Shown here: positions 12,878-17,659 of the stretch, one piece after another
Layout of the letters: every line of letters begins with the position of its first letter
How positions within the stretch are numbered: position 1 is the first letter of the stretch
Assembly: GCA_944324435.1 (NCBI GenBank)
Contig: CALUWH010000023.1
Span: forward strand, 1 to 32,321
DNA from: Candidatus Gastranaerophilales bacterium
GTDB taxonomy: Bacteria > Cyanobacteriota > Vampirovibrionia > Gastranaerophilales > Gastranaerophilaceae
Direction: 5' to 3'
DNA: 32,321 bases
Translations under genes and position numbers: made by a program
The notes under the pieces: model-generated
Seen by the model: the letters and a program-made list of their open reading frames with translations, nothing else
Database searches by the model: none
Told to the model about the DNA's origin: nothing

Positions 12878-12906
12878 TTGTGTACTAAAGTCAATTGTGT
12901 TATAAA
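12878..12906 (+). promoter_or_regulatory. Promoter of the riboswitch transcript
   Basis: TTGTGT at 12878-12883, a 17-base spacer and TATAAA at 12901-12906. Transcription would start near 12913, just before the riboswitch-like element. The -35 directly abuts that of the opposite symporter promoter. Confidence 0.5.
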
Positions 12907-12920
12907 TAAATTAAAACTAA

Positions 12921-12987
12921 ATACGAGGAAACTACGGTGGAAATCCGTGACTGTACCGCAGCCGTTAAAGCCGGAATACTTCAGGGA
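12921..12987 (+). promoter_or_regulatory. Cobalamin-riboswitch-like element (compact form)
   Basis: The order of conserved blocks matches the adenosylcobalamin aptamer core: GAGGAAAC, then CGGTGGAAATCCG, then GACTGTACCGCAGCCGT, then AAGCCGGAATACTTC, which resembles the B12 box. The region between the ACTGT-like block and the B12 box is only a few bases, so the peripheral helices of the full form are missing, as in short variants. Two weaker hairpins lie between it and the first gene: GCCC/GGGC near 13036-13055 and 13079-13105. I infer control of the 13156-15313 genes by a B12 derivative. How it switches, by termination or translation, is not evident. Confidence 0.65.
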
Positions 12988-12992
12988 TAAAT

Positions 12993-13008
12993 GGGTAAAG
13001 GGGTAAAA
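12993..13008 (+). repeat. Tandem octamer GGGTAAAG/GGGTAAAA
   Basis: Two head-to-tail eight-base units just after the riboswitch-like element. The same GGGGTAAA unit appears in other intergenic regions, including three near-perfect copies at 27821-27844 on the other strand. Confidence 0.6.
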
Positions 13009-13155
13009 TAAATACAACATAGAAATAAGTAAAAAGCCCGATATATAAGAAGGGCAAACCTCTTTATTTTATCCGAAATGCAACACTGCGAGTTACAGTA
13101 TTGCATAGAGCTTTTCTTTGTTGCGGTAAAACTCGGCATAGAAAGGTTTTTTATT

Positions 13156-13824
13156 ATGCCTGCAGCAAATATTAATAATGTAAAAAGCGGACTCTGTCCT
13201 CACGGAATGTCACCGGGCGCCTGCCCTGTTTGTTCGGGAATGGGAGGCGGAGGAAGCCGTGTGGGAGAAAGACCCCAAAAAGCCGGAGAATGGAGTTATC
13301 ATCATTGTGCAATGGTAGGTGCAATGATGAAGGCAAGAGCACAAAGGATTGAAAACCACGAAAAGAATCTTTTGGCACATGCAGAAGCTCTTTTGAAATT
13401 TCAACAAAATCTGGAGAAAATGACACAGAAAATGATTGATTTTGCAAATCAAATTTCAAAAAGCTTTATTTTAAAACCTGTTGCATTTACAATAAAGAAT
13501 ATCGTAGTTCCAATTATCAATACTATTAGAAATATTCCGAATATTATTTCTAATCTGAACCAGATAAAACAGAGATTTGTTGATATACAAGACAAATTGA
13601 ATGCGCTGTTTGGGGAGGCCAAGGCCTTTGTTGAAAAGAAAATTTCAGAATTTATAAGTTCTGTAAAATCAAAGTTTGAGGACATCTTCAAGATTTTTAA
13701 AAAGAATAACACAGAAGATGACGATACAAAAATTGATGATGACAAAAGGATTTTTAATCTGAAGAAAGTTTTAAGAAAACTCTGGAAGAAAAGGGATGAT
13801 ACAGAAGATAAATCAGGATCTTGA
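13156..13824 (+). CDS. Unknown Cys/His-rich protein, first gene after the cobalamin-type riboswitch
   Basis: A 222-residue protein of unknown function. The start at 13156 is chosen because AGAAAGG lies nine bases upstream; the frame is open back to 13078, but that stretch is leader. Near the N-terminus is a compact metal-binding-like motif, LCPHGMSPGACPVCSG (13-28: Cys14, His16, Cys23, Cys26), then a glycine stretch and YHHC (48-51). Residues 60-105 are helical and coiled-coil-like. Residues 106-135 are hydrophobic but not a clear membrane span. The rest is amphipathic and ends in an acidic-basic tail. There is no signal peptide. The membrane-protein gene at 13796 overlaps its end, so the two form an operon. 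A zinc-binding role for the N-terminus is inference. Confidence 0.8.
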   Translation: MPAANINNVKSGLCPHGMSPGACPVCSGMGGGGSRVGERPQKAGEWSYHHCAMVGAMMKARAQRIENHEKNLLAHAEALLKFQQNLEKMTQKMIDFANQISKSFILKPVAFTIKNIVVPIINTIRNIPNIISNLNQIKQRFVDIQDKLNALFGEAKAFVEKKISEFISSVKSKFEDIFKIFKKNNTEDDDTKIDDDKRIFNLKKVLRKLWKKRDDTEDKSGS

Positions 13825-15313
13825 ATCTTCAAGACACCAGAAAAACATGACTAATACTCAAAAGCGCAATGATACATACGTAAAAGAGGGTATCATTGTT
13901 AATTCTTACGTGAAAGATCCCCTTCTGGATGGGAGTAAATCTGCGACATTTGACAGTTCATCAAAAAACCCGTCTTTACTAAACGAAACTTACGATACTC
14001 TTGTTATTTCAAATACAATAGATATGCCGCAAAAGCTTTATGAAAAAGAGGAGAAAAAAATAAATCCGCTGCTTCCGCTCTGCATTGCAACAATTGGGGT
14101 TATGGGACTTTTAGGCGGATTTACCGCTATGATGAGGAAATTTTCTAAAGGCAAACTTGAAAGCTCAAAAGAATATCTGCTTCCGGGAATTACCAGAAAC
14201 CACTGTATAAATGACGAAGTACACCAGAGTATTTTCAGCATGATTCAGTCTCCAAACAGAAAAACAATTCTTGCTTCTCTTGGGGTTATAACCCTTGGCT
14301 CTATGGCGTTTATGGGGAAAATCTTTATCGACGGTTTTAAGGAAGTCTGGGTAAAGAAGCAGGAAGCTGACATCCAGAAAAACTTGCAGGAAAATTTAAT
14401 TGAGGTTGAAACACAGTCGTTTTCCGGAAAGATTCAGATAATAAGAAGCATGCTTTCTGCCAAAGCCAATATGTTCTCATCAGAGCTTGCTTTTAAAGGA
14501 AATAAAAAAGATAAAGAAGAAAATGACCAGAAGCCTCTTTTATTGTTAGGTGGTTTGACACTGCTATCGATACTCGGCTTAGGATATTATTCCGCAAAGA
14601 ACATCAGAAAGAGCGACGAGTTTATAAAAAAAGGGATTAAAAATACGAAAAAAGGGCTTGAAAACGTTATAGATGATTATAATAACGGTAAACCGATTAA
14701 TAATATGCAGGGGCATAACGGAGAGGTTTTAATAGGGAAAGACGCATACAAACTTTTAATAGAAAACCTTCTTGAATCTGTTTACGCACGGCCGGATGAG
14801 GTTAAAGAAGCTGTTAATAAAATGGATATGCCGGAAAAAGAAAAAGAAGAGTTTCTAAATCATCTGCTGGATTCAATGAATCAGGCGACCGAAAAGGTTA
14901 ACCCGATGATGGGCGGCTCAGGGCGGAATAAGATTACTTATTTTTCTCATGTTAATGATTACTTATCCTTCTTTTATGATTGGCTTATGAACCCTAAAAA
15001 TCCGCAGTTTAAAAATCTTTTCTTCGGAATAGCCGGAATCTCTGCGCTTGCCTATGGCGGTAAAGCTGCAGCAGAGGCAGTCAAGGAAGTCCAGGTAAAG
15101 AAATATAATGCAGATATTGAGCTTAATCTCCAGAAACGCCTAGTTTCTACAGAACTCCGAAACTTTAAGGCAAAAAAAGATTCGGCAATTGAGCCTTTGT
15201 GTGAAGAATTTATTAAACAAAAACAAAGCGGTAAATCTCAGGAAGAATTAAAGGTTATAGCGGACAATATACTCTTTGAAATCAAAAACGGGCCGCCGTT
15301 TGTATACAGTTAA
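13796..15313 (+). CDS. Unknown membrane protein with an internal duplication
   Basis: A protein of up to 505 residues. The start is ambiguous: 13796 overlaps the previous gene by 29 bases and has GGAAG upstream, while 13847 gives 488 residues but has no ribosome binding site. Membrane segments lie at about 91-112, 157-180, 247-265 and 407-428. Two blocks, about 152-212 and 402-462, are clearly related: each has a hydrophobic helix followed by KEVxVKKxxADIxxNLQ and a further 20 residues. A short LAFKG motif at 231-235 recalls motifs in other proteins of this window. A terminator follows at 15323. It is probably an inner-membrane protein made with the Cys/His-rich protein under cobalamin-type control. 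Function unknown. Confidence 0.8.
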   Translation: MIQKINQDLESSRHQKNMTNTQKRNDTYVKEGIIVNSYVKDPLLDGSKSATFDSSSKNPSLLNETYDTLVISNTIDMPQKLYEKEEKKINPLLPLCIATIGVMGLLGGFTAMMRKFSKGKLESSKEYLLPGITRNHCINDEVHQSIFSMIQSPNRKTILASLGVITLGSMAFMGKIFIDGFKEVWVKKQEADIQKNLQENLIEVETQSFSGKIQIIRSMLSAKANMFSSELAFKGNKKDKEENDQKPLLLLGGLTLLSILGLGYYSAKNIRKSDEFIKKGIKNTKKGLENVIDDYNNGKPINNMQGHNGEVLIGKDAYKLLIENLLESVYARPDEVKEAVNKMDMPEKEKEEFLNHLLDSMNQATEKVNPMMGGSGRNKITYFSHVNDYLSFFYDWLMNPKNPQFKNLFFGIAGISALAYGGKAAAEAVKEVQVKKYNADIELNLQKRLVSTELRNFKAKKDSAIEPLCEEFIKQKQSGKSQEELKVIADNILFEIKNGPPFVYS

Positions 15314-15377: not shown

Positions 15378-17321
15378 CTATTCGCCGCTGCAGCCGAAAG
15401 CTATAGTAACGTGTTCTTTCGGGTTGATAGCTGAGATTTTGTAACCCTTAGCATCAACTAAGTAGCCAACCTCGTCTCCTGTTGCCTGAACAAGCCCTAC
15501 CGTACCTGAGATTGCAGTTCTTGTTATATCAATAGGAGCCTTAACAGTATCCTTAACAACATCTCCTACACTTCTTGCAGATGCCATAAACTGACCCTGG
15601 AATGCTTCACCAAGTGCAATACCAGTACCGGAAGCGACGTCTTCTAAAGCATTACCCAGGTTAGAGAGCATACCGCCGGTTGTTCTGCCGACAATACCTA
15701 ACATCTGACCGCCCCAGGTAAGAGGTGCTGTAACAATTCTTGATACAATATTAGGAGTATTTGATTTGTTAATTTCAGCGTTCAGAATCTGTCTTGGTAA
15801 TGTTGCCTTGCAGCCGCAGTGTTCAATTTCTGTAAATGCAAGTTTTAAAGCACCCTTCTGACATCCTGAAGGTCTGATTACTTCTACAACCTTACCGTAT
15901 ACCTTTGAACCGCAAGGGTAAAGCTGACCGTTAATTGTTACATCTTCTAATGTCTTAGCTGCAAATCTCTGACCTACGTGTGAAGATTTTGCACTTACCT
16001 GGTCCTTAAATTCTAACTGTAATGTCGGAATTTGAACAATTTCTTCGTTCTCAATAAAGGCCTTCTTATCTGTAGGACACATTGGACAATCATTATTTGC
16101 TGTTACAGGGTTTTTATCAATACCTGCTGCTACACGAACGTTTTGAAGCATTGCTGCTATATCAGCACGAGAAGCATCCTTAAACGGTGCAATTGTGTTC
16201 GGATTTGGCGAATTATTCAAAGCGCCTTTATCCAAAGCCTTAGCTACAGGGATTTGTGCCCATTCAGGAACGGTGTTACCGTCACAGTATTTAGACAGAA
16301 TTTCCTGTGCTTTGCATTTATCCATTTCTGCACACTGAATACCCTTTGATAATGCACAAAGTGCTTCTACTCTTGTTACGTTATGATTAGGCATAAATTT
16401 GCCGTTAGGATATCCTTTTAACAAGTCCTGATGTACAGCAACAGTGATTGCTGAATTAGCCCAGTGATTTGTCGGAACGTCTGAGAATAACTTTTCAGGT
16501 GCACAAGAGTACATATCCTTGTCAAAACCTTTTACTAACATTGTAGCAAATTCCGCACGTGAAATATTTCTTGACGGCTTAAATAATCTGTCAGGATAGC
16601 CTACGACAACATCATTTGTTGCAAGCTTATCAATTTCACAAGAAGCCCAGTATCCTTCCGGAACATCAGGGAACATCTGTAAGCCCGCTGCAGCACCTGT
16701 CATATTGCTGAAAGGTGATAAATCAAACGGCTCTAATGTCTTCTTTATTGCTTGAATAGAATTTGCCGTACCCATCTGAATCGGGCAGCCGTTACCGTCC
16801 ATTTTTGCTTCATCGCGGACTATAGGAGCACCCTGATGGCTTGATAAATCATTCAAGCAAGGAATGTTTGTTGCAGCACCGGTAATTGATCCGTCACTTG
16901 CAACTGTAGTGCCCATGGTTCCTGCTGTAAGCTTGTTGATTTCTCTGTTAACAGAAAAACCTTCTGCCTTGTAGATTGAATCTTTTTCTGTACCTACAAA
17001 GTTGTTGTACCCATAGACTGCATTCGGATATGAATATACCTGTTTCATATCAGCTCTTGACAAGTCTTTTACACCCGGGCATAAAGCACAAGACGGAACA
17101 GGGTCCGGCTCGCATTTCGGTGCGGTATCACAACCGCATGCCGGTTCCGGCTCACAAGGACAAGCTGCACCTGTCATTTCCGGAATTTCATTACACGGAC
17201 AAGCTCCCTGAGTAACTACAGGGCGCTGATCACACGGGCAGGCTGCCATTACCGTATTGAACGAACACGTTGCTATACCAACGGCAATTGCAGCTGCCAC
17301 AGTAAGTTTTCTAATCGTCAT
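15378..17321 (-). CDS. Secreted Cys-rich S-layer-homology (SLH) protein
   Basis: A 647-residue surface protein. The start at 17321 is chosen because AAGGAGG lies at ideal spacing and a clean signal peptide follows (MTIRKLTVAAAIAVGIATCS to about residue 26); the frame is open to 17354. After cleavage comes a Cys-rich stretch with repeated CPC motifs (28-82), including CPCEPEPACGC. Three SLH domains follow at about 217-267 (FPDVPEGYWA), 279-328 (FSDVPTNHWA) and 353-396. Residues about 430-540 form a beta-rich domain of unknown type (VGQRFAAKT, NGQLYPCGSKVYGKV), then a glycine-rich, moderately hydrophobic tail. SLH domains are known to bind cell-wall-linked polymers or peptidoglycan, and in cyanobacteria they anchor outer-membrane proteins. 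There is no porin barrel here. Cysteines may give disulfide cross-links. AAC at the signal end could also be read as a weak lipobox. Confidence 0.9.
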   Translation of the reverse strand: MTIRKLTVAAAIAVGIATCSFNTVMAACPCDQRPVVTQGACPCNEIPEMTGAACPCEPEPACGCDTAPKCEPDPVPSCALCPGVKDLSRADMKQVYSYPNAVYGYNNFVGTEKDSIYKAEGFSVNREINKLTAGTMGTTVASDGSITGAATNIPCLNDLSSHQGAPIVRDEAKMDGNGCPIQMGTANSIQAIKKTLEPFDLSPFSNMTGAAAGLQMFPDVPEGYWASCEIDKLATNDVVVGYPDRLFKPSRNISRAEFATMLVKGFDKDMYSCAPEKLFSDVPTNHWANSAITVAVHQDLLKGYPNGKFMPNHNVTRVEALCALSKGIQCAEMDKCKAQEILSKYCDGNTVPEWAQIPVAKALDKGALNNSPNPNTIAPFKDASRADIAAMLQNVRVAAGIDKNPVTANNDCPMCPTDKKAFIENEEIVQIPTLQLEFKDQVSAKSSHVGQRFAAKTLEDVTINGQLYPCGSKVYGKVVEVIRPSGCQKGALKLAFTEIEHCGCKATLPRQILNAEINKSNTPNIVSRIVTAPLTWGGQMLGIVGRTTGGMLSNLGNALEDVASGTGIALGEAFQGQFMASARSVGDVVKDTVKAPIDITRTAISGTVGLVQATGDEVGYLVDAKGYKISAINPKEHVTIAFGCSGE

Positions 17322-17659
17322 TTTAACCTCCTTTTTAATAGGTGGAGTACACATTTACCCCTTTTCTTTAGGTGGAATAAATTTACGTTTATTTTATCAA
17401 CTTTATTTACCCCTACCTCAGGAAAACTAACTCCTAAATTATGGAAGTTTTCAAGGATTAAAACATTACCGAAAAAGGGAATCCAGTCGGGGGATTCAGA
17501 GGCGGTAAAAGAACGACATTTGTATAAGCTGATATCCGAAATAAGTGAAGAATTCATTTACGTTACTGTAAGGAATTAATATTTCTTAATATTTAGTCAA
17601 ATTTTATATGTTGAAAAACTTTATATTAATATAAGAGTAAGACATGGGAATAAATTAAG
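17322..17659. other. Divergent intergenic region, no gene seen
   Basis: About 340 AT-rich bases between the SLH gene and the plus-strand gene at 17660. On the minus side the SLH leader contains two copies of TA(C/T)TCCACCT and two GGGGTAAA octamers (plus-strand TTTACCCC at about 17355 and 17409). A four-codon frame (ATG at 17644, TAA at 17656-17658) ends one base before the ATG at 17660. No clear promoter pair was found for either gene. Confidence 0.5.

Follow-up and report, generated by a model that had tools for sequence, protein, structure and literature searches.

A class-II cobalamin riboswitch precedes two conserved, unnamed gene families in the gut order Gastranaerophilales

Relation to described cobalamin riboswitches and transporters

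Known B12-regulated targets include the corrinoid importers CbrT/ECF and BtuM, which are small membrane uptake systems, and cobalt uptake genes are likewise known targets of cobalamin riboswitches, cobalt import serving B12 synthesis. The Gastranaerophilales are non-photosynthetic relatives of the Cyanobacteria that live largely in animal guts. Among class-II cobalamin riboswitches, class IIa prefers MeCbl or HOCbl and class IIb prefers AdoCbl (PMC11260477). In the corrinoid riboswitches that have been studied, kissing of loops L5 and L13 stabilises P13 and a hairpin holding the ribosome-binding site (RBS), which leads to repression with one activating exception (PMC10653944), and nearly all published switches with this kissing-loop and RBS-hairpin logic repress (PMC10653944, PMC11260477).

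The stretch of DNA analysed here (the window; 32,321 nucleotides, contig CALUWH010000023.1 of assembly GCA_944324435.1, Candidatus Gastranaerophilales bacterium) carries a leader that resembles RF01689 switches, among them env8HyCbl and the leader of M. tuberculosis ppe2, in its compact aptamer, GGAAA junction and B12 box as well as in its L5-L13 kissing loop and RBS hairpin. As with M. tuberculosis ppe2, the target is of uncertain function (PMC11260477). The window differs from the known RF01689 switches in its target genes and in an extra conserved hairpin, with a CGAGUCA-like loop, that precedes P13. The riboswitch itself belongs to a known class, and the novelty lies in the target genes, here called gene 1 and gene 2. 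The papers searched describe neither this operon nor B12 riboswitches in the order, and judging from them its B12 economy appears undescribed.

The closest comparison within the order is with btuB-btuCDF operons under cobalamin riboswitches, which share the switch class and occur in G348, a genome from which genes 1 and 2 are missing. Unlike those operons, the window operon encodes no TonB receptor, FecCD permease, ATPase or binding protein; the sequences are unrelated, and searches of Pfam, NCBIfam and the PDB sequences reveal no BtuB or BtuCDF homology in genes 1 and 2. It differs also from CbrT/ECF and BtuM, for which the two genes give no Pfam or NCBIfam match; EcfT (PF02361, CbiQ/EcfT) is present in none of the 27 Gastranaerophilaceae genomes surveyed, the window's own included, in a search whose controls were positive. 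Nor do the genes match the B12-independent isoenzymes MetE and NrdD in Pfam or NCBIfam.

The aptamer

The aptamer at positions 12913-12988 of the forward strand matches the AdoCbl-II family (RF01689) with 36.1 bits (E 8.1e-7; covariance model over 701 bases), and RF01689 is the best-scoring family of its clan for this element. The covariance search that the original prediction had proposed for its adenosylcobalamin-type aptamer is therefore significant. The score lies 0.4 bit under the curators' gathering cutoff for RF01689 (36.5 bits), and for this reason a scan of the window at gathering thresholds is empty; orthologous leaders reach 56.9 bits with the same model, many of them above the cutoff. 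Within its own genome of 1.95 Mb the window aptamer is the sole strong match, and three weaker matches were not upheld when scanned against all Rfam families. The covariance alignment places the B12-box region (AGCCGUUAAAGCCGGAAUAC), conserved in 53 leaders, at 12960-12979. The L5 loop UACCGCA, the aptamer half of a predicted kissing loop, is at 12954-12960. The window aptamer is almost certainly a real cobalamin riboswitch.

As to the promoter claimed by the original prediction, a promoter consensus scan of the region gave matches no better than those in shuffled sequence, but a candidate -10 element, TATAAA at 12901-12906 just 5' of the aptamer, recurs in relatives as judged by eye, an AT-rich TAnnATA-like element being found just upstream of the aptamer in same-genus leaders.

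The expression platform

A P13 hairpin is predicted by folding at 13107-13150, with a Shine-Dalgarno sequence AGAAAGG (13140-13146) in its 3' strand. Its predicted energy is -16.1 kcal/mol, and the Shine-Dalgarno has a paired probability of 0.98. Because MAFFT failed to align the P13 region structurally, the L5-L13 and P13 pairings were scored sequence by sequence in 53 same-genus leaders. Across these leaders the predicted mean paired probability of the Shine-Dalgarno is 0.83 versus 0.53 with the upstream part shuffled, and it is higher than in the shuffled versions in 47 of the 53. The L13 loop of the window (UGCGGUA, 13122-13128) is complementary to L5 at seven of seven positions. The L5 sequence of the 53 leaders is either UGCCGCA or UACCGCA; most of them have a loop shortly 5' of the start codon that reads UGCGGCA, UGCGGUA or a near variant; a perfect 6-bp complement between the two is present in 32 of 53 leaders versus 1.4% of shuffles. 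The pairing also shows a compensated exchange, in which a G-C pair of the relatives is replaced by A-U in the window and in the leaders L113 and L116.

An accessory hairpin that is absent from the RF01689 model stands between the aptamer and P13 (13079-13105; loop CGAGUUA in the window). Its conserved loop, CUUCGAGUCAAAG or CUGCGAGUCACAG, is found in the window and in 43 of the 53 same-genus leaders, and the outer stems vary in sequence while retaining complementarity.

In the predicted fold the Shine-Dalgarno sits within the L13-bearing hairpin, an arrangement able to block translation. Because L5-L13 kissing represses in the studied corrinoid riboswitches (PMC10653944), a translational OFF switch is predicted, and the leader very probably is one. 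By analogy with those systems, a bound corrinoid would stabilise the kissing loop along with the P13 hairpin, thereby blocking initiation, and when corrinoid is scarce the ribosome site would open and gene 1 would be translated. Gene 2 would then be made, probably by translational coupling over the overlap of the two genes.

The two target genes

Gene 1 (13156-13824, forward strand; 222 aa) encodes an N-terminal CPHGMSPGACPVC motif and a glycine run followed by amphipathic helices, the product beyond the motif and glycines being predicted to be helical. Its start is the ATG at 13156, about nine bases past the conserved Shine-Dalgarno, and the alignment agrees with this placement, most relatives starting with TTG at the equivalent site; an in-frame ATG at 13078, the start of a longer reading frame in a mechanical list, receives no support from the alignment. 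The Cys/His-rich character originally ascribed to this protein holds for CPHG and CPVC, which are nearly invariant, but not for HHC, in which relatives usually have Y or W in place of the first histidine and Q, E or N in place of the second. The CxHx6CxxC motif (C14, H16, C23 and C26; 13195-13233) and nearby glycines are each at least 90% conserved among 54 gene 1 homologues, and the near invariance of the Cys and His residues suggests that the motif is a metal site.

Gene 2 (13796-15313, forward strand; 505 aa) starts within the 3' end of gene 1, so that the two genes overlap, as had been predicted; the overlap measures 29 nt (13796-13824). The encoded membrane protein has two repeated halves, with three hydrophobic segments over the threshold and a fourth near residue 410 that appears plausible by eye. 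The internal duplication claimed for it was recovered by hhalign, which aligns residues 141-215 (14216-14440) with residues 388-463 (14957-15184) at a probability of 97% and 28% identity. The protein ends in EIKNGPPFVYS, and among relatives conservation runs through to the C-terminus as EIKNGPPF[VI]Y.

Neither protein has a significant Pfam or NCBIfam family or a relative by PDB sequence-profile search, in which coiled-coil noise was all that appeared, and a PHROGs search returned nothing significant. The view that the genes are unlike the usual B12 targets is borne out by these searches. Structure prediction from 54-55 homologues gave low-confidence helical models for both proteins (pLDDT 65 and 66 for genes 1 and 2), which found nothing in the PDB at E < 0.001 with Foldseek. 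Weak resemblances to alpha-xenorhabdolysin-type proteins (NCBIfam E 0.009 for gene 1, Foldseek E 0.17 for gene 2) were set aside as ordinary long-helix noise. An order-specific F-[KG]-G sorting motif, considered for gene 2 and its neighbours, shows no enrichment, with 11.4% of N-termini having it versus 10.8% in shuffles.

Linkage and phylogenetic distribution

Gene 1 is present in 56 of 58 genomes of the window's genus and an AdoCbl-II match in the identical 56, in all of which the aptamer, the one strong match of its genome, lies directly upstream of gene 1 on the same contig and strand; the remaining two genomes (G025 and G048) have neither switch nor gene. Outside the genus, the first sample holds 15 members of the order with gene 1, and in 13 of them a cobalamin riboswitch can be detected directly upstream of it. 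The leader of G062 has diverged with its B12 box still legible by eye, and in G075 gene 1 is present with no upstream switch found. Homologues of the genes thus keep a conserved leader throughout the genus and in the greater part of the order, as expected from the original prediction. In G065 the orthologous leader (L073 6108-6279) is of the larger RF00174 type and not AdoCbl-II, so that the aptamer class changes and the target is kept.

At every one of the 67 loci read the two genes are adjacent, gene 2 coming second, and they overlap in nearly all; in G248 and G331 gene 1 stands behind a switch without gene 2. Nearly all members of the order Gastranaerophilales carry the two genes, and gene 1 is restricted to the order save for one marginal match. 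In a class-wide sample of 289 genomes gene 2 was detected in 181, with none seen beyond the order, and the named public genomes that hold DNA relatives of it are MAGs of Candidatus Gastranaerophilales. The operon extends to members of the order outside the window's gut family (families f3 and f5-f7). The aptamer, the L5-L13 complementarity, the position of the Shine-Dalgarno inside the predicted L13 hairpin and the gene linkage are all established by sequence comparison, and the observation behind the original prediction is confirmed. The switch links two conserved, unnamed protein families to B12 in an uncultured gut order.

B12 economy of the order

The same switch class has other targets in the order. 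It precedes a BtuB-like receptor gene with BtuCDF-type genes in G063, G068 and G348 (receptor identity checked) and, elsewhere, NrdD-NrdG (NrdD identity checked), MetE-like genes and a CbiM-like gene, the last in G072 of family f3. In many members of the order a switch of this class stands before nrdD, usually with nrdG, at L269, L270, L272, L273, L275, L277, L081 and L083, and genomes with a switch-led nrdD mostly also carry the B12-type reductase.

Known importers are scarce in the window's family. The survey covered the TonB plug, FecCD and EcfT domains, and apart from the missing EcfT it found TonB plug and FecCD in one of 27 Gastranaerophilaceae genomes each, both times G348. A class-I/II ribonucleotide reductase domain is present in nine of the 27, its identity as NrdJ being confirmed for the two that were checked; eight of these nine genomes are without the tested importers, and seven of the eight carry gene 1. 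Outside the window's genus the reductase is found in 13 of 13 genomes with gene 1 versus 2 of 10 without it, a comparison in which the genomes without gene 1 were picked deliberately and the Fisher test (p 9e-5) ignores phylogeny. In G348, one of the two reductase-bearing exceptions without gene 1, the switch leads BtuBCDF genes in place of the operon. G253 has the reductase but neither the operon nor any tested importer. Family f7 holds both BtuBCDF and the operon.

Within the window's own genus the B12-type reductase is missing from all ten genomes tested, and MetH is confirmed in one of the ten (G056), with similar matches in G005 and G020. QueG, considered as a hidden B12 user, is absent from all 33 genomes searched, including all 27 of the family. 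The sole protein with a B12-binding domain in the window's own genome is an HpnJ/BchE-like radical SAM enzyme, and relatives that have no operon possess this enzyme as well. Either this radical SAM enzyme or an unknown enzyme uses B12 in the genus, or else the operon is not for B12 supply.

Possible functions of the operon

Standing behind a B12 switch in bacteria that mostly lack the major known importers, the two genes are promising candidates for a novel means of acquiring or handling B12. The product of gene 2 would be an integral inner-membrane protein, and its soluble partner, the product of gene 1, would have a Cys/His site for metal or corrinoid; together they may acquire or retain corrinoid where BtuB, BtuCDF and ECF importers are lacking. 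A role in acquisition or retention, with the genes made when B12 is scarce, is the favoured reading, held tentatively and at rather less than an even chance. The explanation as a whole, in which a class-II cobalamin riboswitch translationally represses a Gastranaerophilales-specific corrinoid acquisition or retention operon, comes close to an even chance; that the two genes form the core of an undescribed system replacing BtuBCDF and ECF across the order is possible but doubtful. The window's genus, without most known B12 enzymes, counts against acquisition, as do the lack of transporter homology, of a reliable fold and of a Foldseek match, the presence of both systems in f7, and the reductase of G253 in the company of neither system. 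The cautious interpretation of the original prediction holds, and its suggestion that the genes may form an undescribed unit for uptake, storage or metal handling gains weight from the almost complete lack of TonB, FecCD and ECF importers in the family and from the association of gene 1 with the B12-type reductase outside the window's genus. If acquisition is the true role, the operon would give bacteria that have no TonB, Btu or ECF systems a new way to import B12; otherwise, the retention of a B12 switch where few B12 enzymes are known suggests that this genus uses the vitamin in some unrecognised way.

The main rivals to acquisition or retention are B12 sparing and metal handling. The operon could be a B12-sparing stand-in of the MetE or NrdD kind, made only when B12 is short, and sparing is indeed a main theme of the regulon, since in the order this switch has NrdD-NrdG and MetE-like genes among its direct targets; neither gene product resembles an enzyme, however, and the operon is kept throughout a genus in which there would be little to replace, as it has no B12-dependent reductase and in most cases no MetH. 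Sparing is accordingly judged unlikely. Alternatively the pair may handle cobalt or zinc, with gene 1 as a chaperone that docks on gene 2 and B12 as a readout of cobalt sufficiency. The nearly invariant CxHx6CxxC and the CbiM-like gene behind the switch in the f3 member agree with this proposal, but CbiQ/EcfT is missing from all 27 family genomes and the B12 synthesis that cobalt import feeds is not among the published vitamin pathways of gut Melainabacteria (PMC3787301), so that metal handling too appears improbable.

It is less probable again that the operon serves the cell envelope or host-associated physiology, with B12 merely a cue for gut location or neighbours. Such a role would suit the retention of the switch by the window's genus, for which few users of B12 are known, and the long membrane-anchored helices of the models could be structural; yet the operon follows the B12-type reductase outside the genus and occurs beyond the gut family, which together suggest a metabolic tie. 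As for the aptamer being a decayed relic above genes that are not B12-regulated, the shortfall of the window copy from the Rfam cutoff is outweighed by the strong scores of its orthologues, by an L5-L13 pairing held through compensatory change in the window itself, and by the joint loss of switch and genes, leaving this explanation barely credible.

Neighbouring genes and a public genome

Elsewhere in the order many genomes have a third small gene (about 140-190 aa, of no known family) 3' of gene 2, for example at L281 7127-7609, L280 6769-7230 and L144 830-1249; in the window's own genus it was found in a single genome. In the window itself, a gene for an SLH-domain protein (15378-17354, reverse strand) is convergent to gene 2 and ends 65 bases from its stop. 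A public MAG tagged 'uncultured Acinetobacter sp.' (CAMORE010000122, L167) carries a Gastranaerophilales gene 2, and its Acinetobacter label is for this reason probably wrong.
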